Source of the DNA: Methylosinus sporium
Lineage (GTDB): Bacteria > Pseudomonadota > Alphaproteobacteria > Rhizobiales > Beijerinckiaceae
Length of the DNA: 64,000 nucleotides
Direction of reading: 5' to 3'
Assembly: GCF_003113265.1 (NCBI RefSeq)
Contig: NZ_PUIV01000006.1
Coordinates: 62,001-126,000 of the forward strand
A program made the position numbers and the translations under genes. Below are positions 1 through 13,698 of this stretch, piece by piece. The stretch's first letter is position 1; each line of letters begins with the position of its first letter. The notes under the pieces were generated by a model, which ran no database searches, was not told the DNA's origin, and saw only the letters and a program-made list of their open reading frames with translations.

Positions 1-48
1 GCGCTGCGCGCGTCGTCTCGGATTTGTTCGAAAGTCCGCATTGCCGCC

Positions 49-138
49 TCAGATGAACGAAAGAGCCGATACGGCGCCGACAAACGCGCAGCACGAAGCG
101 AGGGAAATGAGAACGATAATCTGCCCGATCGTGCGCAT
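49..138 (-). CDS. 29-residue hydrophobic peptide (possible)
   Basis: A short ORF starting MRTIGQIIVLISL and ending ALSFI, nearly all hydrophobic, so it would form a single membrane span. An AGGGA stretch lies about 10 bases upstream of the ATG on the minus strand. It is the last visible reading frame of the leftward prophage operon and is separated from the preceding gene by a copy of the repeated operator-like motif. Small membrane peptides are common in phages, but nothing identifies the function. An ATG further upstream would give a longer, less credible N-terminus. Confidence 0.35.
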   Translation of the reverse strand: MRTIGQIIVLISLASCCAFVGAVSALSFI

Positions 139-183
139 TGCCTGATTCCCTGACACCAGTTCCAATGTCAGGGAATATATAAA

Positions 184-226
184 GGAAAAATCCCTTAGAC
201 AAGACAAAAAAATAGGGGAAATTCCG
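184..226. promoter_or_regulatory. Operator-like site A
   Basis: Holds GGAAAAATCCCTT at 184-196 and, on the minus strand, GGAATTTCCCCTATT at 214-226 reading leftward. The region is AT-rich compared with its surroundings and lies between the 3' end of the 239-residue-frame gene (stop at 227) and the small hydrophobic ORF. It is one of five prophage sites sharing the 13-mer GGAAWWATCCMTT. Binding by the prophage repressor is inferred from distribution only. Confidence 0.45.
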
Positions 227-901
227 CTACTGGTCGAGACCGCCTCGCTCTGCCTCCCGCTCCGCAGCTCTCTCGGATTCCTGCGCATGGCTCGGCAGGC
301 CGAGCATCTTCCGAAGGTCATCAGACATGTCGCAGGGGCCGCCGACGCGCTCGCGGATGGTCTTGAGGCTATGCTCGGCCTCGTCCCGCGTTATCTCGGA
401 ATAGGGTTTCTTGGCGCTCTTCAGCGGATCTGGCGGCAGGCTTTCGCGAAACCGCTGCATGAGCGCATCGGCGCGCGCCATAGCGCCAGGCGCGAGGTTC
501 TTGCGGCGCTCCACAGCCGCCCGGCGCTCGGCGAGCTGTTCGGCCTCTCGGCGGTCGCGCTCGGCGATGCGGGCTTTTCGGTCGAGTTCGCGGCGAACTT
601 CCTGCGCGATCTGCGCGGCAGTCGGCGCGAAAACGCCATCCCCGAGGCGACCATCGCCGAATTTGAGCATCGTCTCTTCGAGCTCGTCTTTCGGCAGCTT
701 AGCAAGCGCCTCTCCGTAGGCAACAATCTTTAATCGCAGCTCTTGTTTATCGTCTGCCCGTCGAGCAAGCTTTGCAAATAGCTTTCCAATTCCTGCGTAT
801 AACTCACTTGTCGAAGCGGTATTCACTTGGGTCGAGATCGATTGCCCCGGCTGAGAAATCGATGTCGTCAACTGCCCGATTGTTTTCATCTGTCGATCCA
901 T
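227..901 (-). CDS. Phage protein, possible replication accessory
   Basis: About 224 residues from the ATG at 901 (MDRQMKTIGQ); a TTG at 946 or an ATG at 889 are alternative starts and no ribosome binding site decides. The N-terminal third contains a helical stretch followed by LGDGVFAPTAAQIAQEVR. An F-x-P-T-x-x-x-[IL] arrangement like this often appears in phage replication loaders encoded after a replication initiator. A charged coiled coil rich in Arg, Glu and Ala follows. The gene overlaps the 3' end of the replication gene by about 100 bases, so the two are probably co-translated. A helicase-loader role is inferred from position only. Confidence 0.55.
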   Translation of the reverse strand: MDRQMKTIGQLTTSISQPGQSISTQVNTASTSELYAGIGKLFAKLARRADDKQELRLKIVAYGEALAKLPKDELEETMLKFGDGRLGDGVFAPTAAQIAQEVRRELDRKARIAERDRREAEQLAERRAAVERRKNLAPGAMARADALMQRFRESLPPDPLKSAKKPYSEITRDEAEHSLKTIRERVGGPCDMSDDLRKMLGLPSHAQESERAAEREAERGGLDQ

Positions 902-1937
902 TCTTTCGGTTTTCTTCCGCAATAAGCTCGCCGACAACTTCCACAATTGATCCGTTCCGCGGGCGGTCTCGAGCGTGCTGGCGCTCTGAAGCTCTGTTCT
1001 CGCGGGTGACGTAGGTTCGCCACGCAGCGCCGATGTCCGCGGGCGGAGAGGCGCGGGCGCGGATTTCGTCGCGGAAGATCGGCCAGTGCTTGCGGAATTT
1101 CTGCCTGTCCCACCCCTGCGCTTCCGCGTAGGCGATATCCTCGGCCGTTGGCTGATAGTCCGCGGGGATCATCCCGCGTCCTGCGTCGCGTTTTCGGCGC
1201 TCGACGTATCCGACGAGCCAATTCCGAAAGGCCGCATCCCAATCTCGGCAGCGGCGATCGTTTTGCAGCGCATGATTTTGAAACCGCTCGTATTCGCGGT
1301 CGCGCTCGCCCTGGGTCAGGTCAAGTTTCGCGGCAGCGGCGATCATGCCAGTGGTGATTTTCGCATCTTGGCCGAGCGGCCGCTCTGGCTTCCGGCGAGA
1401 GGACTTCTCCGGGGCGGCCCCGGCGGATTCATCCGGCGACGCCTCGGAGATCGGGGCGGTCTCGCGCCCGGGGAGGTTTAAATTTTCTAGGGGGGGTTGA
1501 TTTATATCTCTTGGGGGGGCGGCCTTCGCCAAAGCGGCGGCCATCAACGGCGAAACCAAGCGTGAAACCGCAGCGGTTTCACGCTTGGTTTCACGTGCGG
1601 TTTCACGTGCGGTTTCACGCTCGGTTTCAGCGCCGCGAATGATAGTAACAGCTTCTTCAAGCCCGCATTTATTGCGGTGTGATACCGTTTTAAGCGTCCC
1701 GATCGGGATTCCTTCCTCTGCCGCGGCGCGCGCGAATGTGCGCTTGGTTTCACGTGCGGTTTCACGTGCGGTTTCACGCTCGGTTTCAGCGATTGCCGCA
1801 GAAATCCTTTTCTCTTGCCGCCGAGGGCGGGTGAGCGCGCGCTCAAACATTCCGGCAATAGCAATCGCCTCGCGCGGCTCAACGCCGGCGGCTATCATGC
1901 GTTCTATTGCTGCGGTGATGCTCACGCGCATCCCCAC
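804..1937 (-). CDS. Putative phage replication initiation protein
   Basis: 377 residues from a GTG at 1937 (an ATG at 1931 gives 375). The N-terminus (about 1-45) looks like a helical DNA-binding or dimerisation segment. Residues about 50-135 contain two copies of ETERETARETARETKR separated by a short globular insert. A Pro-rich linker follows. The C-terminal half contains RDWDAAFRNWLVGY, close to the DWDAxWRNW signature found at the C-terminus of many phage replication proteins (DUF1376/DnaT-like group). It is the longest gene of the leftward early operon. The repeats are as striking in DNA as in protein, so the gene may carry the origin internally, as lambda O does. The replication assignment rests on the C-terminal motif, position and repeats. 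Confidence 0.6.
   Translation of the reverse strand: MGMRVSITAAIERMIAAGVEPREAIAIAGMFERALTRPRRQEKRISAAIAETERETARETARETKRTFARAAAEEGIPIGTLKTVSHRNKCGLEEAVTIIRGAETERETARETARETKRETAAVSRLVSPLMAAALAKAAPPRDINQPPLENLNLPGRETAPISEASPDESAGAAPEKSSRRKPERPLGQDAKITTGMIAAAAKLDLTQGERDREYERFQNHALQNDRRCRDWDAAFRNWLVGYVERRKRDAGRGMIPADYQPTAEDIAYAEAQGWDRQKFRKHWPIFRDEIRARASPPADIGAAWRTYVTRENRASERQHARDRPRNGSIVEVVGELIAEENRKNGSTDENNRAVDDIDFSAGAIDLDPSEYRFDK
1552..1592. repeat. Perfect 20-bp inverted repeat, 1-nt spacer
   Basis: Arms at 1552-1571 and 1573-1592 are exact reverse complements separated by a single A at 1572. The arms are made of the same GGTTTCACGCTT units as the neighbouring direct repeats, so one unit pair is inverted relative to the rest. 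In protein it encodes RETKRETAAVSRLVSP on the minus strand. Confidence 0.9.
1582..1632. repeat. 51-bp direct repeat, copy 1
   Basis: Identical over 51 bases to 1741-1791. It consists of 12-base units beginning GGTTTCACG and contains two CACGTG palindromes. The two copies are 159 bases apart start to start, a multiple of three, so both encode the same peptide repeat. Confidence 0.9.
1741..1791. repeat. 51-bp direct repeat, copy 2
   Basis: Second exact copy of the 51-base block at 1582-1632. Its preservation at nucleotide level, including synonymous positions, suggests recent duplication, gene conversion or selection on the DNA sequence rather than on the protein alone. Confidence 0.9.
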
Positions 1938-2029
1938 ATCGCTTTCTCGCGGAAAGGGGCTTGCGCTTCAGGGGAAATTTCCATAGCTTCTATCTCGCCT
2001 CTGGAAGGGCATTCGGTTTGTAGGTTCAA

Positions 2030-2056
2030 CCCCGGAGTGACAGCTCCGGGGTTTTT
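2030..2056 (+). terminator. Rho-independent terminator hairpin
   Basis: An 8-bp GC-rich stem (CCCCGGAG at 2030-2037 pairing with CTCCGGGG at 2044-2051) with a 6-nt loop is followed by five T residues at 2052-2056. The T-run places it on the plus strand, although the visible genes on both sides are on the minus strand. It lies in the roughly 200-bp gap between the methylase gene and the replication gene. It could stop antisense transcripts, or act as a pause or attenuator for the leftward operon. Confidence 0.6.
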
Positions 2057-2130
2057 CTTTGTCCTGGCTCCGGGTTGGAGCGACGCAGGACGGGCTTCTG
2101 GCGATATTCCGGCGCCGGCAAGGGAAAAAC

Positions 2131-2143
2131 AAGGGATAATTCC
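2131..2143 (-). promoter_or_regulatory. Operator-like site D
   Basis: GGAATTATCCCTT on the minus strand, a copy of the prophage 13-mer. It sits directly beyond the stop of the methylase gene and about 200 bases upstream of the replication gene, so it could mark a second leftward promoter that drives replication genes separately. Confidence 0.4.
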
Positions 2144-2144
2144 A

Positions 2145-2714
2145 TTACTCGGGCGGATCGAACTTCGTACGCTCGTTTCCCCAGGCCACCCACCCCCGCC
2201 GCGACTGGCGCGCGAAGAGATCGACCTTCCTGGCGCCCGGGTCGGCGAAGCGATCGACGGCCGCATAGAACTCTTCGGGCTTTCGGGAATGCTCGCGGCG
2301 GACGCCCGGTAGAATGCCCGGTAGCGCCGTCCGGTATGGCGGAGAGCCCACCTTGCCTATGAGCACAGGCTCTTGCATCGAACGGGCGACGTAGCCACAG
2401 CCAACGGCGTTTTTGCCGGCGGCTGTGACCTTGTGCCAAACGATCATCGTCACAAACTTGAAGCCCCATTTCTTGAGCCAGATGAGGTTCGTGGGGAGCT
2501 TCGGCGCCGTTGCCCATAGGAAGAACCATGCGTCGCCGCTGGCGAGGTCTCCGACCGGCAGAGCTGCAATCTCGTCATCGCTCATCGTCGCATATTGGGC
2601 GCGCGGGCCTTTGGTCTCTCCGGCCGCGGAATAGTTCTCGAAGTCGGAAGGCGGGTCGACGCAAAGGATATCCGCGCAGAATGGCGTGAGCGGATCGAAG
2701 AGCCAATTTTTCAC
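2145..2714 (-). CDS. MT-A70-like DNA adenine methyltransferase
   Basis: 189 residues from a GTG at 2714, chosen because GGGGAGAG lies seven bases upstream and the preceding gene stops at 2719. CVDPPSDFENYS (near residue 20) corresponds to the DPPW catalytic motif of the MT-A70 N6-adenine methylase family, here with Ser in place of Trp/Tyr. WFFLWATAPKLP, GFKFVTMIVWHK and RREHSRKPEEFY fit the family's later strands and RxH-KP signature. Phage MT-A70 enzymes commonly protect phage DNA or alter host control by GANTC-type or other adenine methylation. Target site is unknown. The altered DPPW residue should be checked for its effect on activity. Confidence 0.8.
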   Translation of the reverse strand: MKNWLFDPLTPFCADILCVDPPSDFENYSAAGETKGPRAQYATMSDDEIAALPVGDLASGDAWFFLWATAPKLPTNLIWLKKWGFKFVTMIVWHKVTAAGKNAVGCGYVARSMQEPVLIGKVGSPPYRTALPGILPGVRREHSRKPEEFYAAVDRFADPGARKVDLFARQSRRGWVAWGNERTKFDPPE

Positions 2715-2718
2715 GGCG

Positions 2719-2976
2719 TCACTCTCCCCGGCGCCACGGCTGCTTCGTCGCCTTGATCGCGTCGACACCGTAGTTGGCGATGCGCAATCGCCATTCGGCC
2801 AATTCGTCCGTCGATATCCCGTGAACGCTGCACGCCTCGGCTTCCGAGATCATGCCTCGGTCGATTTCGAAAATGAGCGCGAGCTTGCGGATATGAGTCC
2901 AGCGCGTGATCCGCGCGCGGGGATCGAAATCCTTGATCCAATAATTTTCGCTATGGCGCTTCGCTGCTTCGATCAT
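2719..2976 (-). CDS. SciP-like (DUF1153) transcriptional regulator
   Basis: 85 residues from the ATG at 2976, which overlaps the preceding stop as ATGA. Residues about 25-80 (RWTHIRKLALIFEIDRGM, then ISEAEACSVHGISTDELAEW, then RIANYGVDAIKAT) follow the pattern of SciP, the small helix-turn-helix protein that blocks CtrA-activated transcription in Caulobacter: an RW-x5-K start, L/ISxEEACxxxxxxxDEFxxW, and xGxxGLRAT near the end. Normally this is a core chromosomal gene, so a copy in a leftward early phage operon is notable and suggests interference with the host cell-cycle programme. Homology is judged by eye; function in this host is inference. Confidence 0.75.
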   Translation of the reverse strand: MIEAAKRHSENYWIKDFDPRARITRWTHIRKLALIFEIDRGMISEAEACSVHGISTDELAEWRLRIANYGVDAIKATKQPWRRGE

Positions 2977-3185
2977 TTCATCACCACCCAATGTCGAATG
3001 ACGTCCTGCACGACGAGCGCGCAATCCTCGACGGTTCCGCGGATCTTCAGGATTTCGAGAATGGCGTATCGAATAGCCAGCTCGCCGGATTCCATGCCGC
3101 AGCCGAACTCACTCACAGCCCAATTGACCGCACGAACAGCGATGCGCTCGCGCGTCCGCCGCTCAATCGTCGGGGAGGGTTCCAT
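2973..3185 (-). CDS. Hypothetical phage protein
   Basis: 70 residues, start ATG at 3185. The N-terminus is charged (RRTRERIAVRAVNWAV) and the rest is mixed alpha-helical with an aromatic end (VIRHWVVMK). It overlaps the gene before it by 23 bases and the SciP-like gene after it by 4, consistent with translational coupling in the early operon. No family is recognised. Confidence 0.6.
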   Translation of the reverse strand: MEPSPTIERRTRERIAVRAVNWAVSEFGCGMESGELAIRYAILEILKIRGTVEDCALVVQDVIRHWVVMK

Positions 3186-3426
3186 TTTCGAAAAGCGCTA
3201 CCTGCCAGCGCGGGAGATCGTCGCGGCGCTTCGCGAGTTCGCGTAATGCTATCGCGATCCTGTGGCGTTCGCGGCAGCGCTGGCGCATTCGTTCGAGCTC
3301 TTCCGAAGAACGGGAGCCACGCCCAGTTTTCGCCTCTAGGATTTCGATCTGGTCTCTCAGGCCGATGAAGGCGAGCGTCGCTTCGTCTTCTAGAGAACCG
3401 AGCGGCATTTTCGGCGCATCGTCCAT
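3163..3426 (-). CDS. Hypothetical helical phage protein
   Basis: 87 residues from the ATG at 3426, four bases after the stop of the resolvase gene. The middle is a highly charged heptad-like stretch (SSEELERMRQRCRERHRIAIALRE region), so a coiled coil or helical hairpin is likely. No catalytic motif is visible. Its placement between the resolvase and the SciP-like regulator only shows that it belongs to the leftward operon. Confidence 0.6.
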   Translation of the reverse strand: MDDAPKMPLGSLEDEATLAFIGLRDQIEILEAKTGRGSRSSEELERMRQRCRERHRIAIALRELAKRRDDLPRWQVALFENGTLPDD

Positions 3427-3430
3427 GTCG

Positions 3431-4015
3431 TCACCATGCCGGGTTAGAGAGCGCCAGCGGCCGAGTCGCGCGCGTCAGTTTCGCCACGCCGTATTCCCAC
3501 ATGCAGACGCCATCGCTGCGGTCGTAGTCGGGAATGGCGTCGCTGGGGATTAAGCCGAGCATTACGCATTGCTTCCAAACCATCCGCTTCGTGTCTTCGC
3601 GGCGCTGCGCGACTTCGCGCTTGGAAAGGCGCGGCGCTCCACCACGGCGCGGCGGATGTGCGGTTGCGCGGCCGCAAAGGTGGATGCGCGCGCTCGCGAC
3701 CGGGTAGAGATAGACCGGAATATCGTAGCAGCGCGCGACGCCGAGAACTGCGCCCTGATAGAGCAGGCCGGAAATGATAGCCGCTTGATTTTCCTGCGCA
3801 GAGGGGTCGAGGAACCGCTCGCAAACGATCGCATCGACGACGTTCGCGGTGATCCAATCATTGAGCCAAGAGCCGAGCTTGCCGGCGCCGTCGTAATAGC
3901 CCTCGCTTCGGCCTTCCGAATACAGCTCAAACGAAAACGAGCGCGGTGTGCGCTCGCTCTCGTCCCCGTAGCCCACGCCGCACTTCCGCGCGAGATCAAG
4001 CCCGAGGATTTTCAT
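3431..4015 (-). CDS. RuvC-like Holliday junction resolvase
   Basis: 194 residues, ATG at 4015 overlapping the previous stop. The start MKILGLDLARKCGVGYG places the first catalytic Asp at residue 7. AIVCERFLDP gives Glu66, and IPDYDRSDGVCMWEYG gives Asp163, Asp165 and Asp168. This is the RNase H-fold active-site order of RuvC and of phage crossover-junction endodeoxyribonucleases. It would cut branched DNA made during replication or by the RecT module on the other strand. Length fits the family. Substrate preference cannot be told from sequence. Confidence 0.85.
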   Translation of the reverse strand: MKILGLDLARKCGVGYGDESERTPRSFSFELYSEGRSEGYYDGAGKLGSWLNDWITANVVDAIVCERFLDPSAQENQAAIISGLLYQGAVLGVARCYDIPVYLYPVASARIHLCGRATAHPPRRGGAPRLSKREVAQRREDTKRMVWKQCVMLGLIPSDAIPDYDRSDGVCMWEYGVAKLTRATRPLALSNPAW

Positions 4016-4557
4016 CAGGCGTTGCCGGCCGTCGTGCCGATCGTGGGACGGCGCCCACGGCCTCCGCCGACGCGCAGGGGCGTGACATTGCCGGCCGGCG
4101 CGGCCTGCGCTTCCTCGGTCGCCGGCTCCTCGGCTTTCGCCTTTGCCGCCTTGTCCCTGGAAATGCCGCGGCCCTTCTTATCGGGAATGGGCTTGATGCC
4201 CGCGAGCACCTTCGCGCCGTTTTTCTTGCGCTCGGCTTCCGCGCGCTGCTCGGCCTCGTCCGCCGCCATGTCCGCGAGATCGCCGGCATGGCCGTTCTCG
4301 GCGAGAAACTTCTCGAATATTTCGATGCTAAACCGAAAGTGCGCGACCAACTCTTTCGCCTTCAGCTCTTCGGTCCGTATGAGCTTGGCGAGAAACGCAA
4401 GTGCCGGCTTATTGACGTTGCCGGAATCCACCGCGTCCGACACTCGATCGGCAATTCCCTTGTTGAGATTCCCGACCTTGGTTTTGTTCTCATTGATGGC
4501 CTTCGCGAGCGCGACAAGTCGCTTTTCGTTAGGGAATTTAAATGTTTGTTCTACCAT
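4015..4557 (-). CDS. Hypothetical phage protein with basic tail
   Basis: 180 residues from the ATG at 4557 (MVEQTFKFPN), supported by a GGAG six to seven bases upstream. Residues about 1-95 form a compact helical domain (KGIADRVSDAVDSG, ALAFLAKLIRTEELKAKELV). The C-terminus is low-complexity and rich in Lys, Ala, Gly and Arg, ending in a GGGRGRR stretch suited to nucleic-acid binding. The helical part faintly recalls the layout of GapR/DUF2312 chromatin proteins but no signature is convincing. First gene after the Cro-like protein. Confidence 0.55.
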   Translation of the reverse strand: MVEQTFKFPNEKRLVALAKAINENKTKVGNLNKGIADRVSDAVDSGNVNKPALAFLAKLIRTEELKAKELVAHFRFSIEIFEKFLAENGHAGDLADMAADEAEQRAEAERKKNGAKVLAGIKPIPDKKGRGISRDKAAKAKAEEPATEEAQAAPAGNVTPLRVGGGRGRRPTIGTTAGNA

Positions 4558-4600
4558 TTTCCACTCCGTATCCACATGCGTGGTTTGCAAGGTTGCCGTG

Positions 4601-4945
4601 TTATGGTTTTTTCCCTACAACCTTCTTCGCGGGGCCACGGGAATTGCGGGAATTTCTCGAGGCTTTTGGAGACGGTTGACGGTCCTCGGGAGCGGGATGC
4701 TTTCCGGGCCGCGGGATTTCTGAAGGCCATACGGCGGTTCGAGGCCAATGGTCAGAGAGCCAGTTGGCAATTCGATCGGCGGAAGAGACGGTAAATCCAG
4801 CGGGCGAATCGCTGAAAATACAGCGATTCGCCCAATGGTTGTCATTGAGCGCCAGCTTGCAGACGCCGGATGCGGAGCGTCCTGTGTGCTCTTTGTAGAG
4901 ACGCAGGAGCTCGAGGAGCTGAGAACGAAGCGATTTTTCCCACAT
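4601..4945 (-). CDS. Cro-like helix-turn-helix regulator
   Basis: 114 residues from the ATG at 4945 (MWEKSLRSQLLELL); an ATG at 4972 would add nine. The core (LLELLRLYKEHTGRSASGV, then SADRIANWLSDHWP) matches a small regulator common in alphaproteobacterial prophages, in which a helical YxxxTGxSxSxxxxL segment precedes xxxRxxxWLSDHWP. The tail is rich in Pro, Ser, Arg and Lys. Divergent from the CI-like repressor with only about 60 bases between start codons, so the two form the usual lysogeny switch. The lytic-phase role is inferred from position. Confidence 0.65.
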   Translation of the reverse strand: MWEKSLRSQLLELLRLYKEHTGRSASGVCKLALNDNHWANRCIFSDSPAGFTVSSADRIANWLSDHWPRTAVWPSEIPRPGKHPAPEDRQPSPKASRNSRNSRGPAKKVVGKKP

Positions 4946-4973
4946 GCAGGATTTCGTAACGGAAAAAACCATT
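4931..4973. promoter_or_regulatory. Switch operator region (site E)
   Basis: Between the Cro-like and CI-like start codons. Contains GGAAAAAACCATT at 4961-4973 and, inverted, GGGAAAAATCG at 4931-4941. The first continues into ATTATTCGC, matching the ATTATTTCCC that follows site B. The repressor's ribosome binding site GAGGAGG is at 4990-4996. This is where divergent early and maintenance promoters would be expected. Confidence 0.5.
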
Positions 4974-5004
4974 ATTCGCAACCATCGCAGAGGAGGCAAC
5001 GGGC

Positions 5005-5745
5005 GTGACAGACGAGCAGAAAAACGAAGCAAACGACGAACAGACAGAGGCTCTTAGACAAATGATAAGAGAAAGAATTAAAGAGCTTGGATTCAGCAAG
5101 CGGAGTCTGTCTCTGTATATCAAGAGAGACGCATCGTTTATTCAGGATTTGGTAGGGCCAGATGATCCGTCTAAAGCTTGGAAAAAGCCCAAGAAGAAAT
5201 CTATAAACACGAAAGCTCTCATGGACGTTGAGGATGCTCTTCGTTTCGAGAGGGGAGCGCTCACCGGGCTTCTGTCCTCAGAGGCGCAGATTATTCCGTT
5301 CGCACAAATACCTATAAAGCGGAAAATTCCCGTGAACGCCGTTCCCGACCTTCCCTCAGCGCGGAAAATACCCTTATATGAGCGCGTCAATTTACGCACT
5401 GGAGGGGTCCGCATGTCATCAGCGGCCGAATTAGAAACGCCTATTGGGTTGGAATCTAACAACAAAACATTTGCCGTCACCGTCCCGGATGAGACGATGC
5501 GGCCTGCATTCGGGCCTGGGCATAAGGTCATTGTCCAGGAAGATGCTCCCCTCGCTGGAGCGGATTTCGTTTTCCTCGAGATCGAAGGCACAGACGGCGA
5601 GAATGAGGGATTCATCCGGCGCCTGATCGGGCGCACTGACGAGGGACTGCGGGTCGAGACCCTCACTCCCCAGCGGGAAACCGTTATCCAACACGCCGAA
5701 ATCCTCTCTGTCTCTCCCGTAGTGGCTGTCCTGTTCAGGAAATAA
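5005..5745 (+). CDS. CI/LexA-type prophage repressor
   Basis: 246 residues from a GTG at 5005 with GAGGAGG eight bases upstream. The N-terminus (about 15-85) is an atypical helix-turn-helix, with KRSLSLYIKRDASFIQ as the probable recognition region. The C-terminal half resembles the S24 peptidase/LexA oligomerisation domain: AVTVPDETMRPAFGPGHKVIV at 158-178. In this domain the Ser before Met is the nucleophile and a Lys in the VKRL-like strand is the base. Here they are Thr164 and an Arg pair (EGFIRRLIG, 205-206), so self-cleavage may be lost. Its base composition is more AT-rich than its neighbours, with many AGA and ATA codons, as is common for recently acquired control genes. Confidence 0.8.
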   Translation: MTDEQKNEANDEQTEALRQMIRERIKELGFSKRSLSLYIKRDASFIQDLVGPDDPSKAWKKPKKKSINTKALMDVEDALRFERGALTGLLSSEAQIIPFAQIPIKRKIPVNAVPDLPSARKIPLYERVNLRTGGVRMSSAAELETPIGLESNNKTFAVTVPDETMRPAFGPGHKVIVQEDAPLAGADFVFLEIEGTDGENEGFIRRLIGRTDEGLRVETLTPQRETVIQHAEILSVSPVVAVLFRK

Positions 5746-5749
5746 CGTA

Positions 5750-5795
5750 GTAGCGGAAAAATCCATTATTTCCCTTGCTACGGGAAATATCCCTG
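5750..5795. promoter_or_regulatory. Operator-like site B with palindrome
   Basis: Contains GGAAAAATCCATT (5755-5767), followed immediately by the palindrome ATTTCCC-N7-GGGAAAT (5768-5788). It lies between the repressor stop and the first gene of the long rightward operon (5823), so it is the best candidate for the operator and promoter controlling that operon. Confidence 0.5.
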
Positions 5796-5822
5796 GCATA
5801 GTGGCGTCATCCGATTTGCAGG

Positions 5823-6062
5823 ATGACGGCTATGCAGCAACATCGAATTCCCTTCATGGGGCCGGGCGAGGATAATTCCCCGCTCGGCCGCGATCAGATC
5901 GTTTCGCGCGCGGCCCGGTTCCTGCGCCCCTTCCACAACATTGATATTCCGCACGTCGCCGAAGCGATCTTGTGCGCCAATGGCGCGACGTTCGTCGAGG
6001 CGCGCGCGTTCGCCCCCGCCGCCGCTCGCTATGAGCTGGCCCGCCGGAGGGCGTTCTCATGA
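5823..6062 (+). CDS. Hypothetical phage protein
   Basis: 79 residues, first gene of the rightward operon. Start ATG at 5823 (an ATG at 5832 is also possible). Ends as TGA overlapping the ATG of the ATPase gene. It contains a helical stretch, RDQIVSRAARFLRPFHN, and an Ala/Arg-rich end. No recognised family. The overlap implies translation coupled to the recombination ATPase. Confidence 0.55.
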   Translation: MTAMQQHRIPFMGPGEDNSPLGRDQIVSRAARFLRPFHNIDIPHVAEAILCANGATFVEARAFAPAAARYELARRRAFS

Positions 6063-7372
6063 GCGCGCTCAGAATTGTCCGCCTGCAGGCGGAGAACATC
6101 AAAAAACTCCGCGCCATCGAAATCCGCCCAAAGGGAAACGTGATCGAGATCACGGGGAACAATGGCGCCGGGAAAAGCTCAATCCTTGACGCAATTTTTT
6201 GGGCGCTCGCCGGGACGAAGCATGTCCAGGCGAAGCCGATAAGGGACGGCGAAGAGAGCGCGCGCATCGTCGTCGACATGGGCGAGCTCGTCGTGACGCG
6301 CACCTTCAAGCGCGGGGCGGATGGCGAGATCAAGCCGAGCCTGCGCGTCGAGGGCGCGGACGGCGCGGTGTTCTCGAAGCCGCAAACCATCCTGGACAGC
6401 CTACTCGGAACGCTTTCATTCGATCCGATCGAATTCGAGCACAAGGCTCCGAAGGAACAATTTGAGGCGTTGCGGCGCTTTGTGCCGGATTTCGATTTCG
6501 AGGCGCTGGATGCGCAAACGCGCGGCGATATGGAACGTCGGCGCGACGCGAACCGCGACGCGAAACAGAAGCTCGCCGCCGCCGAGCTGATCGCCATCCC
6601 CGAGAACTTCACGGCCATCGACGAGACCGCCATCATCGAAGCGATGACAAGCGCCGCCGAGTTCAATGAGGCAATCGGAAAACGGGAGGAGCGGCGCCGG
6701 CAGGTCACGCAACGTATCGCCGAAATCGATCGGCGCGCGGCGGACCTGCAACGCGATATCGCCGCGATGGAAGAGCGGATAGCCGTCATGCGCTCGACGC
6801 TCCTCGAGGAATCGGCCGAGGCCGAGGAATTGCGGGAGAAGATCGCCGAGGCCGAGCCTCTGCCGGAGCGCCGCGACGTCGCCGATTTGCGCGCGCAACT
6901 GGACGCGGCCCGCAAGCACAATGCCGCAGGCGGCCGCGCGGCGGAGAAGGCTCGCCTGCTCGAGCAGGCGCAGGAACTCGAAGCGGAGGCGCTCCGCCTC
7001 ACGCTGCGAATGGAAGAGCGCGAGCGCACGAAGCGCGAAGCGATCGAACAGGCTAACCTCCCCATTCGCGGCCTTTCGTTCGGCGACGGCTGCATTCTGC
7101 TCAACGGTCAGCCCTTCGAACAGGCGAGCGCCGCCGAGCGCCTTACCGCGTCAGTCGCCATCGCCATGGCGAGTAATTCCCGCTTGCGCGTGATCCGCAT
7201 TTCCGAAGGGGCCTTGATGGACCCCGACACGTTCGAAGCGCTCGAGGATTTGGCCGAACGATTCGATGCGCAGGTTTTTGTGGAGTCCGTGGCGTCTGGT
7301 CGGCCGAGCGCGATCGTCATCGAAGACGGCGCCGTGAAGAGTTTCGGCAGTCACACTGGGGAAGAAAAATGA
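6059..7372 (+). CDS. SMC/RecN-like ATPase of phage recombination module
   Basis: 437 residues. A clear Walker A, GNNGAGKS, is at 33-40 in a RecF/SbcC-style N-terminus (LQAENIKKLRAIEIRPKG). Residues about 160-340 form a long charged coiled coil. The C-terminal ATPase half is short (IRGLSFGDGCILLNG, then RLRVIRISEGALMDPDTFEALEDLAE); the strand expected to carry the Walker B Asp reads IRISEGALMD, so that motif is unusual. ATGA overlaps join it to the genes before and after. The gene order ATPase, DUF3799 nuclease, annealase suggests it acts with the exonuclease, as SbcC acts with SbcD, during double-strand end processing. Confidence 0.8.
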   Translation: MSALRIVRLQAENIKKLRAIEIRPKGNVIEITGNNGAGKSSILDAIFWALAGTKHVQAKPIRDGEESARIVVDMGELVVTRTFKRGADGEIKPSLRVEGADGAVFSKPQTILDSLLGTLSFDPIEFEHKAPKEQFEALRRFVPDFDFEALDAQTRGDMERRRDANRDAKQKLAAAELIAIPENFTAIDETAIIEAMTSAAEFNEAIGKREERRRQVTQRIAEIDRRAADLQRDIAAMEERIAVMRSTLLEESAEAEELREKIAEAEPLPERRDVADLRAQLDAARKHNAAGGRAAEKARLLEQAQELEAEALRLTLRMEERERTKREAIEQANLPIRGLSFGDGCILLNGQPFEQASAAERLTASVAIAMASNSRLRVIRISEGALMDPDTFEALEDLAERFDAQVFVESVASGRPSAIVIEDGAVKSFGSHTGEEK

Positions 7373-8379
7373 ACATCGAAATTCTGCCCGCGCCGAAAGG
7401 CAAGATCACGAAGCCCGGCATTTATGATTTATCAATGGCCGCTTATCACCGTGCCGACATTTGCGATGGCGTATCCATCAGCTCGACTGGCCTGCGGGTC
7501 GCGATATCGAAATCGATCCGCCATTGGTGGGACAAATATCTAAACCCAGATCGCGAAGAGGAAGACGACGCGAGCGACGACACGAAATACTCGATCCTCG
7601 GGCGGGCCGGTCATCACCTTTTGCTTGGCGAGGCCGCGTTCGTCGAGCACTTCGTTTTGCGCCCGAATGAAGCGCCCGACGCAACCGGGAAGATCGGCCC
7701 CTGGAACGGGAACAAGACTTTTTGCCGGAAATGGGAAGCCGAACAAGTCCTCGCTGGAAAAGGAATTCTCACTGAGACGATGCTGAAACAGGTGAAGGGG
7801 ATTGCAAAGTCCTTCGCCGCAAATCCGCATGTCCGCGGTGGAATTCTCAATGGCCTCGTTGAAAAGTCCTTTTTCTGGAAGGACAAAGAGACGGGGGTAT
7901 GGCTGAAGGCTCGCCCCGACGCGGTTCCGCTCGCGGATGAAACGAGCGTCGATGTGAAGATCGTTCAAGATGCGAGCCGGCGCGGCGTGCAGCGCTCGCT
8001 CAACGACTCGAACCTCCACATTCAAGCGGCGCTCGTCGGAATGGGGCTGGAGGAAGTGCTCGGCTGGAAACGCAACGACGGGCTCCGCTATCTCATGTTC
8101 GGAGAGAGCGTGCGCCCGCATTGTTGCGTCATCCAGCCTATCAGCGAATACGCGATCGATTATGCGCGCCTCGAAATCCGCGCAACGCTCCGCAAGATCG
8201 CGGAGGCGCTGAACAATGCGCGCGTTCTCGAAAAGGAAAATCCGAAGCTCGACCGCTTTCCGATGGAAGCGTTCGAAGGATACGAGACGCGCGATTTTCA
8301 GACGGTCTCGCTGCCGAAATATCGGAGCGATGAATACGAAAAGATGATCGAAGGCGGCATTATCCCGAGGTCCGAATGA
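7369..8379 (+). CDS. DUF3799 / RecE-type PD-(D/E)XK exonuclease
   Basis: 336 residues. N-terminal GIYDLSMAAYHRA and SISSTGLR match the entry motif of RecE C-terminal and DUF3799 nucleases. GRAGHHLLLG (78-87) supplies the conserved His. KARPDAVP with D184 and SVDVKI with D195 and K197 form the nuclease core. The family degrades one strand at double-stranded ends to expose single strands for an annealase. It is encoded between the SMC-like ATPase and the RecT-like protein, all with overlapping ends, so the three form one recombination cassette. Confidence 0.85.
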   Translation: MNIEILPAPKGKITKPGIYDLSMAAYHRADICDGVSISSTGLRVAISKSIRHWWDKYLNPDREEEDDASDDTKYSILGRAGHHLLLGEAAFVEHFVLRPNEAPDATGKIGPWNGNKTFCRKWEAEQVLAGKGILTETMLKQVKGIAKSFAANPHVRGGILNGLVEKSFFWKDKETGVWLKARPDAVPLADETSVDVKIVQDASRRGVQRSLNDSNLHIQAALVGMGLEEVLGWKRNDGLRYLMFGESVRPHCCVIQPISEYAIDYARLEIRATLRKIAEALNNARVLEKENPKLDRFPMEAFEGYETRDFQTVSLPKYRSDEYEKMIEGGIIPRSE

Positions 8380-8627
8380 TGGCGCAACTTCTCGCGATGG
8401 ACACACGAGCTTACCCGACTCATTCGCGCTTCGTCGATTTGAGCGGCCAGCAGTTCGGCGACGTGAAGGTGAAGCGATATCTCGGGCGCCGAAAAGAAAG
8501 CATCTATTTCGTCTGCGAATGCGTTTGTGGAAATGAATTCGCAGGATCGAGCACCGATCTGCGCAGAGGCGCGACGAAATCATGCGGCTGTCACAAGCGC
8601 GCCCCGAAGAAGGAGAAGCAACGATGA
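8376..8627 (+). CDS. Small zinc-ribbon-like DNA-binding protein
   Basis: 83 residues from ATGATG at 8376. FVDLSGQQFGDVKVKRYLGR followed by FVCECVCGNEFAGSSTDLRRG and TKSCGCH is a pattern seen in many phage proteins and in homing endonuclease N-termini: an F-x-x-LxG-x-x-FG start, paired CxCG, and an L-x-x-GxTxSCGC end. The cysteines probably bind zinc. Short length and lack of a nuclease domain suggest a stand-alone DNA-binding unit. It is inserted between nuclease and annealase with overlaps on both sides. Confidence 0.6.
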   Translation: MMAQLLAMDTRAYPTHSRFVDLSGQQFGDVKVKRYLGRRKESIYFVCECVCGNEFAGSSTDLRRGATKSCGCHKRAPKKEKQR

Positions 8628-10234
8628 ATGCACAGGTGCAAGTCGATAACGCGCAGGCGCTCGCCCCGTTTGCGCCGCCGCCCGGCTCTTTGCAGGCACT
8701 TACCGTCGTCAACAACGGCGTCGGCTTTCAAGTCGTGCCGCAAAACTTCATGGAAATGGTGAAGCTCGGCGACCTTATGGCGCGTTCCGGCGGGATGATC
8801 CGCTCGCATTTCCGCGAAAACCCCGGCGCCTGTGTCGCTATCGCAAACCTCGCTCTGCGGTGGGGGATGGACCCCTGGACGGTCGCGAACAAGAGCTATT
8901 ACGTCAACGACCAAACTGCGTTCGAGGCGCAGCTCGTCTCGGCGATCATCTTGACGTGCGCGCCGATCGTTGGCCGCCCGAAATACGAATGGTCGGGCGA
9001 AGGCGAAGAGCGCAAATGCAAGGTATCAGTTCTCGGCAAGGACGGTGAAATCTACGACTACGAGACGCCGCAGCTCAGAAAGATCAAAAAGAAGTCGCCG
9101 TTGTGGACCGATGATCCTGACCAGCAGCTCGGATACTACGGCATTCGAGCGATGGCTCGCCGACATTTCCCAGACGTTCTGTTAGGCGTCTATGACCGCG
9201 AGGAGATCGAATATTCTGAGCTTCCGACGTTCCACAATCGCGAGTCGGAACAGCGGTTGCGCGCGAACGAAATGGCCGAGCGGCTGGCGCGCGCGAACGC
9301 GGCCCCGGCGATCGGCGCCGCCGGCTATGACGCAAAGATCGTCGAGCGCGGGACGGCCGAGATCGAAGGGAAGGCCTCTCCCGCGCCCCAGGGCGAGCCG
9401 GAGAAGCCCAAGGAAGAGAGGAAGCCGCGGGACGAGCCCAAACCCGCAGGCGAGCCGGATAGCCGTAAGGCGAGCGTCGAGCCGCAGGCGAAGCCCGACT
9501 ATCCGGCGCTCGTCGAGGACTTCCGCGTCAGGTGCGAGGCCTTCAGCGACAAGGATGCTCTCGAGCATTTCGTGAGCGACTTCGGCGAGCACGAAGACGA
9601 CGCTTGGTATGGAGACGCGCCGAATGATGTTCTCGACCAAATCGACGAGATCGCGAACGCGCGCGTGAAGGCGATCTATGCGGAAGGGCAGGCGCGCGCG
9701 GGCGAGGTCGATGAAGTCATGGGGACGAGCGCGCCTGCCGAAGACGAGCCGTCCTATTCCGAACTACTCCTGACGCTCGAGGCCGATCTGACGGGCGCGA
9801 AGACGGAAGGCGAAGTGAATGAGATCGCCGCGCGCAATTCGGGCGAAGGCTCTTGGTATGTGAGCGCCCCGGCCGACGTGAAGGCGATAGCCGAAAAGCT
9901 CGTCTTGGATAACACGCTCAGGACTCGCGAGGCGGACAAGGCGGCGGCCCCGGCGCCAGCGGCCGAAAAGCCGAAGCGCGCGCCGAGGGCCAAGGCTGAA
10001 GAAAAGCCGACGGAGAAGGCGGTTTCTGCGGTCTCTGCGGCCTCTACCGCTGAAGCGGCGATCTGGACGGAAAATCCTGACCTGCTCGGCAATGCGCGGC
10101 TCAAAGCGTCGCGCGGGAAGAAGCGCTTCAAGATGTGGCTCAACTCGATTTCGCAACACGATTTCGAATTGCTCGCCCCATTCATGGCGGAACTCGAGAA
10201 AACGGCCGCGGCGGCTGTCGTCGAGGAACTGTGA
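8624..10234 (+). CDS. RecT-like single-strand annealing protein with long tail
   Basis: 536 residues from the ATG at 8624, overlapping the previous stop. Residues about 30-215 carry RecT-family features: FMEMVKLGDLMARSGGMIR, CVAIANLALRWGMDPWTVA, KSYYVNDQTAFEAQLVSAII, and the LGYYGIRAMARRHFPDVLLG block. The remaining 300 residues are unusual: a charged linker, two related helical segments (about 285-345 and 365-425, both ending in a WYxxAPxDV motif), then an Ala/Lys/Pro-rich linker and a C-terminal KKRFKMWLNSISQHDFELL segment. Most RecT proteins are near 270 residues. The tail may recruit partners. Confidence 0.85.
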   Translation: MNAQVQVDNAQALAPFAPPPGSLQALTVVNNGVGFQVVPQNFMEMVKLGDLMARSGGMIRSHFRENPGACVAIANLALRWGMDPWTVANKSYYVNDQTAFEAQLVSAIILTCAPIVGRPKYEWSGEGEERKCKVSVLGKDGEIYDYETPQLRKIKKKSPLWTDDPDQQLGYYGIRAMARRHFPDVLLGVYDREEIEYSELPTFHNRESEQRLRANEMAERLARANAAPAIGAAGYDAKIVERGTAEIEGKASPAPQGEPEKPKEERKPRDEPKPAGEPDSRKASVEPQAKPDYPALVEDFRVRCEAFSDKDALEHFVSDFGEHEDDAWYGDAPNDVLDQIDEIANARVKAIYAEGQARAGEVDEVMGTSAPAEDEPSYSELLLTLEADLTGAKTEGEVNEIAARNSGEGSWYVSAPADVKAIAEKLVLDNTLRTREADKAAAPAPAAEKPKRAPRAKAEEKPTEKAVSAVSAASTAEAAIWTENPDLLGNARLKASRGKKRFKMWLNSISQHDFELLAPFMAELEKTAAAAVVEEL

Positions 10235-10740
10235 GCAAGCGCACGAAGATCACGGCCCCGCGCTGCGTCGAATGCGGCGCGGAGGCTGTCCTCGCGACCG
10301 GGCGAGAGGCTTATCCGCATCGGCCCGACCTTGCCGGCAAGATCATGTGGAAATGCCAAATGTGCGCGGACTCACACTGCGGTTGTCATGAGGGCTCGCA
10401 ACGGCCGCTCGGGCGCCCGGCAGGGCCAAAAGTGCGAGAGGCAAGGACGCTCTTGCATAAGCGGATGCTCGACCCGCTTTGGCAGACGGCCGACCAAATC
10501 TATGAGGGCGGATTTGAAAACGAATTGGCTCGCACCATCGTCAGAGGGAAGGCCCGGAGCCGCGTCTATGCGTTCCTCGCGAACCGGCTCTCGATGACGA
10601 AAGAGGAATGCCACACGGGGTCTTTCGATCTCGATCAATGCCGCGCTGCGTGGCGCGCATTGCAAGGGATTTCCTACGCCGAAATTCGCGAATGGGCGAA
10701 GGTTAGAGAGAAGGCCGCGAAAGAAAATGGCGACACGTAA
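10231..10740 (+). CDS. DUF3268 zinc-finger phage protein
   Basis: 169 residues from a GTG at 10231 overlapping the annealase stop as GTGA. CVECGAEAVL and WKCQMCADSHCGCHEGS give two zinc-binding Cys clusters. RPLGRPAGPKVREARTLLHK, DPLW, AYAFLANRL-like and EECHTGSFDLDQC segments complete the DUF3268 pattern. The family occurs in phages near replication and recombination genes and has no established function. It overlaps the next gene by 14 bases. Confidence 0.75.
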   Translation: MSKRTKITAPRCVECGAEAVLATGREAYPHRPDLAGKIMWKCQMCADSHCGCHEGSQRPLGRPAGPKVREARTLLHKRMLDPLWQTADQIYEGGFENELARTIVRGKARSRVYAFLANRLSMTKEECHTGSFDLDQCRAAWRALQGISYAEIREWAKVREKAAKENGDT

Positions 10741-11149
10741 GCTCGTTGTGAAGACCTCCGATTTGCGCAAGGCCATCCCCATGCGCGTGAAGCTTCAAGC
10801 GGCACTGCTCGCAGCGGGCTTCTCATTCGAGGAAGTGACGACGCCCGGCGCCATCGAATTCGACCATACGCCGCCGCTCGGACTTAGGAGAGTGGTCGGC
10901 AATGACTTCGATCCTCCGCAACATGCGCCGCAGTATATCACGCCGCGCGCGAAGGCCGATCATCGGAAGAAGACAAGCGGCGCCGGCGCGACATGCGCCG
11001 ACTCCGACGTTCATAAAATCCACAAGGCGCGGCGTCTCTCGCGCGAGCATGAAGAGTTCCAGGCGCGCATCCTGGCCCCCGACAAGAAGCGGGACGAGAG
11101 GCCGCGATCGAAATGGCCGAAGCGGCAGATAGCGAGGCGAAGAAAATGA
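10727..11149 (+). CDS. HNH-type endonuclease-like protein
   Basis: 140 residues from the ATG at 10727. IEFDHTPPLGLR supplies the D-H pair of an HNH core, YITPRAKADHRKKT a second His, and SDVHKIHKARRL the end of the motif. This arrangement recurs in small phage HNH proteins encoded outside the packaging region. The C-terminus is strongly basic (KWPKRQIARRRK), suited to DNA binding. Cleavage activity is likely from the motif but the target is unknown. Confidence 0.65.
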   Translation: MATRKLVVKTSDLRKAIPMRVKLQAALLAAGFSFEEVTTPGAIEFDHTPPLGLRRVVGNDFDPPQHAPQYITPRAKADHRKKTSGAGATCADSDVHKIHKARRLSREHEEFQARILAPDKKRDERPRSKWPKRQIARRRK

Positions 11150-11511
11150 GAGAGCCGTTCAGACTGAAGCGCACGCGCCAGTGCAAGAAATGCCCGTGGA
11201 AGGTCACGACGGACCCGCACGATATCCCGAGCTATTCCGAGGCGCTTCACCGCGAGCTTTCGCGAACGATCGCGAGCCCAGACATGCCGCTCGGATCAAC
11301 CACGACAATGGCCTGTCATGAGCACGCGCCGGCCGATGAAATGCATTGCGTCGGATGGCTGACGCATCAACTCGGCCCTGGAAATAACATCCCGCTCCGA
11401 ATGCGGATGCGCGATTGCGAGAACGCTCGCGAGATCGCGCTCGACGGCGCGCAGCATAAGCGCTTCGAGGATACTCTCCCGCGCGGGAATGGAGGCCGCC
11501 GCTATGGCTAA
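11146..11511 (+). CDS. DUF6283-like phage protein (CxxCPW)
   Basis: 121 residues from the ATG at 11146, overlapping the HNH stop. RQCKKCPWKVTTDPHDIPSY near the N-terminus matches the CxxCPW signature of DUF6283; later MACHEHA and MHCVGW add Cys and His residues, so a metal site is plausible. Family members occur in phages and actinobacteria without assigned function. It lies in the block of small genes after the recombination cassette. Confidence 0.6.
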   Translation: MREPFRLKRTRQCKKCPWKVTTDPHDIPSYSEALHRELSRTIASPDMPLGSTTTMACHEHAPADEMHCVGWLTHQLGPGNNIPLRMRMRDCENAREIALDGAQHKRFEDTLPRGNGGRRYG

Positions 11512-11710
11512 GGAACCATTCAAAGACCCGTTCGAAAATCTTCCGCGCCGCTCGATGTTCGTGGCCGGCGAAGAGACCCCACCGAAGGCCCAAGAGAAGC
11601 TAAAGCGCATTGCCGGCGCGCGTGCTGCGATCGAAACGAAAGAACCGACGAAGAAACAGACGGCGCCGAAGAAGCGCAAGCCGGCGAAGAAACGAAAGGC
11701 GAAGAAGTGA
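11504..11710 (+). CDS. Small lysine-rich phage protein
   Basis: 68 residues from the ATG at 11504. The N-terminus reads MAKEPFKDPFENLPRRSMF. The C-terminal 25 residues are a Lys/Arg/Pro tail (KKRKPAKKRKAKK at the end) resembling a histone H1 tail, so nonspecific DNA binding is plausible. The stop overlaps the GTG of the next gene. No family recognised. Confidence 0.5.
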   Translation: MAKEPFKDPFENLPRRSMFVAGEETPPKAQEKLKRIAGARAAIETKEPTKKQTAPKKRKPAKKRKAKK

Positions 11711-12078
11711 GCGCGAACCTGCGAACCGAAGTGACGCACCTTATCGCGGAATGCGTCATCGACAACAAAGCGATTCAGGATATCGCCGAGTGCATCTTCG
11801 CGAAGCTCTCGGGCCACAAGGAAGCCGGCGACCTCGCGCTGTGCTGCCGGGAGAGCGAGGGCGACCTCGCTTCCATCGCCCTTCTCACCGCCGCGCTCGT
11901 CGAAGCGCGGCGCGATGGCGAGCGGCAAATGCTCCGGCGCATCCTCGAAACGACAAATAGCGGCGATTTCGCCGAGCGCGACAAGACGGCAATTCGCAGC
12001 GCCTGCTTCCGCGTAGACCCCTCACTTTTGCGGTCACTCTTCGAAGAACGGACGAAGGCGAGCGCCGCCAATGCGTGA
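11707..12078 (+). CDS. Hypothetical phage protein
   Basis: 123 residues from a GTG at 11707 overlapping the previous stop. Predominantly helical (VTHLIAECVIDNKAIQDIAECIF, IALLTAALVEARRDGERQMLRRI). Four to five Cys are scattered and do not form a motif. Encoded between a basic tail protein and a membrane peptide. Function not recognised. Confidence 0.55.
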   Translation: MSANLRTEVTHLIAECVIDNKAIQDIAECIFAKLSGHKEAGDLALCCRESEGDLASIALLTAALVEARRDGERQMLRRILETTNSGDFAERDKTAIRSACFRVDPSLLRSLFEERTKASAANA

Positions 12079-12175
12079 AGCTTTGCCCGCGCTCTTCCTG
12101 GCAATCCCGATGGCGCTCGCGATCGTCGCGTGCCTTCGCATCGGCAAGAATGGAGATCATCGCCATGGGCGATAA
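12071..12175 (+). CDS. 34-residue membrane peptide
   Basis: Starts ATG at 12071 inside the end of the previous gene and ends TAA at 12175, past the start of the next gene (12165). Sequence begins MREALPALFLAIPMALAIVA, a single hydrophobic span, followed by a basic, His-containing tail (RIGKNGDHRHGR). The nested position between two real genes and the typical signal-anchor composition argue for a genuine small protein. Function unknown. Confidence 0.4.
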   Translation: MREALPALFLAIPMALAIVACLRIGKNGDHRHGR

Positions 12176-12953
12176 GACAGATATCGAATGGGCGGACTCT
12201 ACCGTCAATTTTTGGTGGGGTTGCACGAAGGTCAGCGCCGCGTGCGATCATTGCTACGCCGAGACATGGGCGAAGCGATTTGGTGGCGAGCATTGGGGCG
12301 CGGGAGCGCCACGGCGCAAGATCAAGGGCGCGCGCACGCTGCTGCATCGGCTCGACAATGATTATGCGGCATGGGCCGCCGACCATGAATGCGGCCTTCT
12401 CCCGCCTCTGAGCGGAATTCGTCGTCGAGTGTTCTGCATGTCGATGGGAGACCTCTTCGACAATGAGGTTCCGCTCGATTGGTTCGAGGAAGCATGGCAG
12501 ACAATCTATGACTGCAACCTCGTCGATATCATCATCGTGACCAAGCGCCTTGCGATGATCGAAAAGCGCCTCAAGGAGGCGGGCTTCGATGGTTGGCCGC
12601 AACATGCATGGTTGCTGACGAGCGTCCACGATCAGGCGAGCGCCGAGCGGGAAGTTCCCCGACTATTGGAACTGAAATCGAAGCTCGCAATTCCGGTCGC
12701 AGGCCTATCGATAGAGCCGATGCTCGGGGCTATCACATTCTCAGAAAATTGGGATTGGCTGCAATCTCTCGATTGGATCATCGTCGGCGGCGAGAGCGGC
12801 AAAGGCGCGCGAGACAACAATTTCGAAGCGAACGCACGCGTCATGCGCGCGCAATGTCGAGAGGCGGGCGCCCCCTTCTTCGGCAAGCAGAACGTCGGCA
12901 AGAGACCGCTTCCTGACGATTTGCTCGTCAGAGAATTCCCAACAGCATATTGA
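12165..12953 (+). CDS. Gp37/Gp68 family (DUF5131) radical SAM-like protein
   Basis: 262 residues from the ATG at 12165 (MGDKTDIEWADSTVNFWWGC). The family start, IEWxxxTxNxxxGCxKVSxxCxHCYAE, is complete, with cysteines in a C-x6-C-x2-C arrangement. Later VFCMSMGDLFD, IIIVTKR, HAWLLTSVHDQ, GLSIEPMLG and WIIVGGESG are all family hallmarks. These phage proteins are predicted to be related to radical SAM enzymes such as spore photoproduct lyase. Substrate unknown. Cluster spacing differs from the classic CxxxCxxC. Confidence 0.8.
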   Translation: MGDKTDIEWADSTVNFWWGCTKVSAACDHCYAETWAKRFGGEHWGAGAPRRKIKGARTLLHRLDNDYAAWAADHECGLLPPLSGIRRRVFCMSMGDLFDNEVPLDWFEEAWQTIYDCNLVDIIIVTKRLAMIEKRLKEAGFDGWPQHAWLLTSVHDQASAEREVPRLLELKSKLAIPVAGLSIEPMLGAITFSENWDWLQSLDWIIVGGESGKGARDNNFEANARVMRAQCREAGAPFFGKQNVGKRPLPDDLLVREFPTAY

Positions 12954-12997
12954 CGGCCGCGAGCACAACAGCAGTTCAATTTTCAACGGAGAGTGAC

Positions 12998-13255
12998 ATG
13001 GACAAGACCGCTATTTTGAAGAAGGTGTTTGCCGAGGTGGAGCAGCGCACAGGCTTCACTGAGGATCAAATCCGCAACAACACAGCCGGACTGCGCCTCG
13101 GCCCGATTATCGACGCGCGAGCCGAGGTTTGGGGCCGGCTGCATTTCGAACATGGATGGGCGAATACCGCGCTTCAAAACGAGTTCGATAAGGACTGGCG
13201 CGTCATCCGAAACGGCCTCGCGAACTGGGCGAAGAAACAGGTTGCCGCCGCATGA
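12998..13255 (+). CDS. Small helix-turn-helix phage protein
   Basis: 85 residues from the ATG at 12998, with GGAGAG just upstream. The middle (LGPIIDARAEVWGRLHFEHG then WANTALQNEFDKDWRVIRNG) resembles a DnaA domain IV-like or sigma-type helix-turn-helix, where an ARxxxW helix precedes the recognition helix. It could be a DNA-binding regulator or replication helper. The resemblance is only at pattern level. Next gene overlaps by ATGA. Confidence 0.5.
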   Translation: MDKTAILKKVFAEVEQRTGFTEDQIRNNTAGLRLGPIIDARAEVWGRLHFEHGWANTALQNEFDKDWRVIRNGLANWAKKQVAAA

Positions 13256-13410
13256 GCTTCTTTTGGCGCGGCGGGGAAATCATCCCGTTCCAATTTCGAA
13301 AGGACGGTAGAAGCGTAGGGCGGACGGCGATCGTAATTCGGCGGCCTTCCGGGATGGTGAAACGGGCGCGAGCGCGCGTTCTCGCGGCGAGGAAGAGGAT
13401 ACGAATTTGA
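13252..13410 (+). CDS. Small basic phage protein
   Basis: 52 residues from the ATG at 13252, overlapping the previous stop. Begins MSFFWRGGEIIPFQFRKDGR and ends in an Arg/Lys-rich helix (MVKRARARVLAARKRIRI). The composition suggests nucleic-acid binding. The stop TGA overlaps the TTG start of the next gene. Too short to classify. Confidence 0.45.
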   Translation: MSFFWRGGEIIPFQFRKDGRSVGRTAIVIRRPSGMVKRARARVLAARKRIRI

Positions 13411-13688
13411 CCAGTGAAACGACAAAGAAAATCAGCGACGCGATAAGGGCCACGATGGCGTCAATAGAAAATGAGCTGAAGGCGGGCGGAGACGAGCGGG
13501 AATTCAATTTCATGGTTCTTACCGAGCTCGTGGACGCGGAAGGGAATGCAACTGTCACCTCGTCATCGAACATTGGCTGTTTCGGCGATCTGGTTGAACT
13601 GATCGTCTCGTATGTGAACGATTTGAAGGATCGGAAATGCCCGCAATGTGAGGCGGAGCCGAGCGACGAGCCTTGCACGAAGCACTGA
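13407..13688 (+). CDS. Hypothetical phage protein
   Basis: 93 residues from a TTG at 13407. N-terminal helix (ISDAIRATMASIENEL), a central beta-type stretch (EFNFMVLTELVDAEGNATV) and a C-terminal CPQCEAEPSDEPC that may bind a metal. No family recognised. Follows the basic 52-residue protein with a four-base overlap. Confidence 0.5.
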   Translation: MTSETTKKISDAIRATMASIENELKAGGDEREFNFMVLTELVDAEGNATVTSSSNIGCFGDLVELIVSYVNDLKDRKCPQCEAEPSDEPCTKH

Positions 13689-13698
13689 GGGGGATGCG

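Follow-up and report, generated by a model that had tools for sequence, protein, structure and literature searches.

Introduction

In Caulobacter, SciP opposes the CtrA-activated genes of late S phase (PMC4241560, PMC8865702), and two alleles, sciP(T24I) and sciP(T65A), relieve SciP function (PMC4241560). Homologs of GcrA are encoded by phiCbK-like Caulobacter phages (PMC3556154), and phage analogs of CcrM are known (PMC9437464). A literature search for SciP together with phage or prophage, with most subscription papers outside its scope, yielded no report of a phage-borne SciP.

Here we describe P0001, a protein encoded by a prophage of Methylosinus sporium. Judged by its sequence, P0001 is a member of DUF1153, the family of small helix-turn-helix proteins that includes SciP. 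Similar to the GcrA homologs of phiCbK-like phages, which were proposed to reset the state of the host, it is a phage protein homologous to a cell-cycle regulator of Alphaproteobacteria. Unlike them, it is related to another regulator, from another protein family: S-phase genes are promoted by GcrA, and SciP holds back the genes that CtrA activates. The window, i.e. the whole stretch of DNA that was analysed, is 64,000 nucleotides long (G000:C9:62001–126000).

A DUF1153 gene in the early operon of a prophage

The P0001 gene lies exactly where the original prediction had placed it (2719–2976, minus strand); it starts with ATG and codes for 85 residues followed by a stop codon. Its coding score is +0.166 per codon, compared to −0.102 for the overlapping antisense ORF. 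Against the Pfam DUF1153 profile (PF06627) P0001 scores 47.7 bits (E 1.7e-12), well above the curated cut-off of 23.5 bits, which bears out the predicted membership in the SciP/DUF1153 family. A sequence search of the PDB found only two structures, both of DUF1153 proteins: 2OA4 (SiR5, E 1.4e-7) and 2JRT (E 7e-7). The AlphaFold model, of modest quality (mean pLDDT of 68.8), is a four-helix helix-turn-helix domain (helices 28–40, 45–52, 56–69 and 71–76). Its best fold match is again 2JRT, and the match is weak (Foldseek probability 0.99 but E 0.066; VIA Z 5.2), so the model and its fold matches were used as support only. Taken together with the location of the gene (see below), window 2719–2976 almost certainly encodes a phage-borne DUF1153 regulator.

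The SciP motifs that had been picked out by eye are roughly right, although their spelling was loose. The basic start is RWTHIRK, i.e. RW-x4-K and not RW-x5-K. The helix containing SxEAC is present as SEAEACSVHGISTDELAEW, with DEL in place of DEF, and the C-terminal GxxGxxAT-type end is present as GVDAIKAT, with one glycine and not two. That P0001 is a decaying fragment of a captured host protein or of a transposase helix-turn-helix, devoid of function, is very improbable. Its second-best Pfam family is indeed the IS3-type transposase domain HTH_Tnp_1, and its branch in the tree is long. However, the HTH_Tnp_1 score is 15.7 bits, below that family's own cut-off and far below the DUF1153 score; the frame is intact, carries a coding signal and has overlapping neighbours; the core residues RW, RK, G, EAC, S/T-x-DE, W, G and T are retained, and unrelated phages have retained such genes.

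The prophage is about 61.7 kb long, and positions 1–16061 of the window are its right part. It is bounded by a 25-bp att repeat of the tRNA-Leu 3′ end, with copies at C9:78037 and C9:16322. In the window, the attR core lies at 16037–16061 and the tRNA-Leu gene at 16038–16122, next to a tyrosine integrase gene (14574–15863, minus strand; phrog_1, E 5.2e-56). A rightward early operon carries a recE/exonuclease VIII-like gene (7369–8379, plus strand; phrog_412, E 1.6e-44) and a recT-like gene (8582–10234, plus strand; phrog_561, E 8.4e-55). With int, recET, terminase, portal, tape measure and central tail fibre genes, the element is a complete-looking lambdoid prophage. The element is also present in IMG/VR, where it is a provirus of 60,037 bp, identical over the 12 kb compared. 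The predicted prophage origin of the gene holds: a gene related to a family of host cell-cycle regulators lies inside an att-flanked prophage with a full set of morphogenesis genes. As a separate observation, the C-terminal extension (residues 462–601) of the product of the portal gene (L084:6941–8755) matches phrog_755, which is annotated as RNA ligase and is probably a mislabelled portal domain.

In a compact operon that points left, the P0001 gene has the fifth place; the genes of this string overlap and run away from a divergent phage-type repressor gene (5005–5745, plus strand), which supports the predicted leftward early operon. The repressor has an S24-type C-terminal domain (phrog_4 repressor, E 0.0016; PF00717, E 0.0046, below the curated cut-off). 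Beginning opposite it, the string consists of a probable first gene in the Cro position, whose true start is probably internal (4601–5032, minus strand; phrog_7669, E 1.2e-18), a gene for a 191-residue early protein (4015–4590, minus strand), to which searches against Pfam and PHROGs assigned no function, a RuvC-like Holliday junction resolvase gene (3431–4015, minus strand; phrog_159, E 1.4e-7), two small genes, the DUF1153 gene and, after a 7-bp gap, an MT-A70 family adenine methyltransferase gene (2145–2711, minus strand; PF05063, E 2.8e-26; phrog_359, E 2e-48). The first of the two small genes encodes an 87-residue protein (3163–3426, minus strand), a look-alike of which, by eye, also precedes the methylase at the corresponding position in the IMG/VR phage L102. 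The second encodes a 70-residue protein with no family match in Pfam or PHROGs (2973–3185, minus strand; coding score 24.1). Its stop codon overlaps the P0001 start (ATGA), so translational coupling is likely. Farther downstream and in the same direction lies the gene of a 377-residue early protein (804–1937, minus strand). By analogy, the string has the arrangement of the cro-side early genes of lambda.

Departures from SciP and the CtrA circuit of the host

The host is a methanotroph close to Methylocystaceae. Its genome carries pmoA and contains both partners of the canonical circuit, in line with the predicted CtrA control of this host. Its CtrA is 86% identical to the Caulobacter CtrA query. 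Its SciP is a canonical 91-residue protein encoded on another contig (G000:C13:35228–35479); the named SciP sequences nearest to it are those of an unclassified alphaproteobacterial MAG (97%) and of a Methylocystaceae MAG (95%).

P0001 and chromosomal SciP share a small size, a single helix-turn-helix-type domain and the core of RW..RK, G, EAC, S/T-x-D/E-E, W and G...T, but P0001 is not a close SciP, which qualifies the original prediction. Identity to the host SciP is 26–28%. The N-terminal arm YVIGPDGxPLTxxDLPP, which precedes RW in the host SciP and in the chromosomal relatives aligned, is absent from P0001, whereas both Rhodobacterales DUF1153 proteins of known structure, 2OA4 and 2JRT (RHOS4_12090), keep it. 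The basic motif RWVxRRKAEVV of SciP reads RWTHIRKLALI in P0001, with RW and RK kept and the first arginine of RRK lost (IRK). The C-terminus is TKQPWRR instead of TRxQQYR, and the gene belongs to a prophage early operon and not to the chromosome. Because the arm was looked for and is absent, we class P0001 as a divergent DUF1153 protein and not as a SciP ortholog.

From the 41-residue spacing of the two Caulobacter alleles, we infer that T24 and T65 can only be the equivalents of two threonines of the host SciP: T21, which belongs to the arm, and T62, with which the recognition helix starts. P0001 has a serine at the T62/T65 place and no residue at the T21/T24 place. The loss-of-function allele sciP(T24I) would thus map into the arm, and the arm therefore probably matters for SciP function.

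In a careful tree built from few columns, which covers the proposed comparison with the chromosomal copy, P0001 stands by itself at the end of a long branch (5.8 changes per column), although placement with the host clade was not rejected (p-AU 0.23). Recent capture of the host SciP is unlikely as the source of P0001, given the low identity and the long separate branch; the p-AU value tempers this reading. A second tree test that used all rows of the same family (p 2.6e-8) was discarded because these rows include paralogs and do not form one clade.

The prophage has no full CtrA box (TTAA-N7-TTAA). The box that the original prediction had pointed to does exist and is the only one in the window, at 44152. 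It is chromosomal, however, about 28 kb beyond the att site and a short way ahead of an ORF for a probable exopolysaccharide sugar transferase, and was rejected as a part of the P0001 system. If P0001 acts via CtrA, its targets are then host genes. The heptamer TGTCGCG, reportedly a SciP site, is not enriched in the prophage (20 observed vs 25 expected). GANTC is apparently depleted relative to a Markov shuffle, and this is not a phage trait, because the chromosome shows the same (2.4 per kb in the prophage vs 1.9–2.6 per kb in the chromosome).

These departures bring in the main rival to a role in the CtrA circuit, which we consider a plausible reading, if clearly short of an even chance: P0001 may be a transcription factor dedicated to the phage, a DUF1153 helix-turn-helix recruited for phage promoters (early shut-off, late activation) that has lost its contact with CtrA. 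The missing arm, the altered basic motif, the very long branch and the lack of CtrA boxes in the prophage all agree with it, as does the cro-type lambdoid operon, the usual site of phage regulators. On the other side, most of the DUF1153 members found are chromosomal SciP-type proteins, and two of the phages described next stand against it.

DUF1153 genes in other phages

DUF1153 members above the cut-off were found in at least four further phages: Erythrobacter phage XM05, two IMG/VR phages (G957 and G958) and a prophage of a genome of the same family as the host (G154). With P0001, DUF1153 genes, as recognised by the profile, occur in five unrelated phages. This recurrence is new, and so is its rarity (1 of 50,697 named phage records). 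Phages of such bacteria seem to have borrowed the SciP-type switch repeatedly.

One copy that argues against a purely phage-dedicated factor is that of G957 (2840493055_000001; L210:5905–6198). It is a near-canonical SciP of 97 residues (126.4 bits), arm included, and is surrounded by HK97-type head genes. The tree places it among the chromosomal SciPs of a probably sphingomonad-like family (f14), and it is apparently a recent capture from a host of that family.

The prophage of G154 (contig C222) offers a second counter-argument, as it pairs its DUF1153 gene with a CtrA paralog. The DUF1153 gene (L078:7681–7923) encodes 80 residues (45.6 bits) and overlaps the genes of a C5-methylase and a primase. 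Upstream of it lie RuvC-like and MT-A70 genes; those of terminase, portal and capsid follow downstream. Similar to P0001, the protein is divergent, and its gene shares an early/replication module with genes of the RuvC-like and MT-A70 types. Unlike P0001, it sits between C5-methylase and primase, in a phage that also encodes the CtrA paralog. The latter (231 residues; L215:2832–3527, G154:C222:23331–24026) lies between the early module and terminase and falls in phrog_731. It is 66% identical to Caulobacter CtrA, compared to 85% for the chromosomal CtrA of G154. Its presence raises the plausibility of phages working on the CtrA circuit.

The XM05 protein, XM05_97 (PV416404.1; L087:8031–8225), was found with the host SciP as the query. 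It has 64 residues, scores 65.0 bits and is annotated as hypothetical; read from its sequence, it is SciP-like. Similar to P0001, it is a phage-borne DUF1153 protein without the arm, but it comes from a 152-kb phage, no common gene neighbourhood was seen, and its sequence is closer to canonical SciP. In G958, the DUF1153 member (69.8 bits) has DnaB, MT-A70, RuvC-like and RecT genes nearby.

The recurrence of methylase genes raises another alternative: P0001 could be not a transcription regulator but a partner of the MT-A70 methylase or of replication proteins, for instance one that confers specificity, assists DNA loading or serves counter-defence. The P0001 gene lies immediately upstream of MT-A70, both G154 and G958 also have MT-A70 and RuvC-like genes, and the G154 gene overlaps those of C5-methylase and primase. 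Yet the DUF1153 gene does not adjoin MT-A70 in G154 or G958, and most MT-A70 phages examined have no DUF1153 gene, with none found beside MT-A70 in the other phages examined. We regard this partnership as improbable. Related phages have the RuvC/MT-A70 cassette without a SciP-like gene; the DUF1153 gene is therefore optional cargo.

Close relatives of P0001 were found neither in named phages, genome contigs and nine other species of the host genus nor, besides the same provirus, in viral contigs. A PHROGs scan of P0001 and the G957 protein gave no matching family save a marginal transposase match (E 0.094).

Possible role of P0001

The mechanism we favour, tentatively and at somewhat less than an even chance, is drawn by analogy: P0001 may dampen CtrA-activated promoters of the host as a trimmed SciP-like antagonist. 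Upon release from the repressor, P0001 would be made together with the other early proteins. It would act on host transcription by binding CtrA and/or SciP-type promoter DNA and would keep the late cell-cycle genes that CtrA activates (those for flagella, pili and division, ccrM, and ctrA itself) at a low level, and the infected cell would be kept from dividing while the phage replicates. The expected effect would be a lowered expression of motility, pilus, division, ctrA and ccrM genes. The original prediction had suggested that such a protein could favour S phase. This does not follow directly, because SciP restrains CtrA-activated S/G2 genes and in Caulobacter opposes those of late S phase (PMC4241560, PMC8865702); any shift towards S phase would at best be an indirect effect.

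We favour a CtrA antagonist because its target, CtrA, is present in the host, and because of the biology of SciP, the precedent of the phage GcrA homologs, the recurrence in phages and the CtrA paralog of G154. Against it stand the absent arm, IRK in place of RRK, the low identity to SciP, the long branch, the absence of CtrA boxes and of heptamer enrichment in the prophage, and the status of the gene as optional cargo. A broader and more doubtful proposal is that pieces of the CtrA circuit are portable and have come to be carried by alphaproteobacterial phages again and again (SciP-type antagonists, joined in at least one prophage by a CtrA paralog). They would form an early module for host takeover, by which the CtrA regulon is rewired in infection or lysogeny, with P0001 as a minimised member. 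If phages have indeed captured SciP-type proteins recurrently, in one case along with a CtrA paralog, the CtrA switch would be a direct phage target, and the phage proteins would be natural minimised SciP variants, useful for finding the parts of SciP needed to block CtrA.

DUF1153 loci outside the five phages

Several other candidates were rejected as phage DUF1153 genes. At the loci examined, the second DUF1153 copies of the host genus and of three further genomes (G121, G141 and G069) look chromosomal. A match on a Phaeobacter plasmid (H3) is the helix-turn-helix of an IS3 transposase. Canonical SciPs in IMG/VR (L086/L211 and L208/L209) lie at contig ends beside host-like genes; they are flanking or ambiguous and were not counted. 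One of these contigs (3300020599_000180) also encodes a GapR-domain protein (PF10073; L209:5183–5500) in a phage-like stretch that adjoins the canonical SciP, possibly at a boundary between phage and chromosome.

Three further DUF1153 loci lie in other settings. In G242, a divergent DUF1153 gene (L202:8188–8493), whose partner in the tree is the G154 prophage protein, lies between apparent flagellar hook-type and fliF-type genes. G551 has a second, divergent copy (L201:5983–6264) in a region that looks mobile by eye, near abiE-like, ArdC-like and transposase ORFs. On the Paracoccus plasmid pAK2, a DUF1153 protein is encoded at L088:7917–8222, between decarboxylase and peptidoglycan-binding genes.
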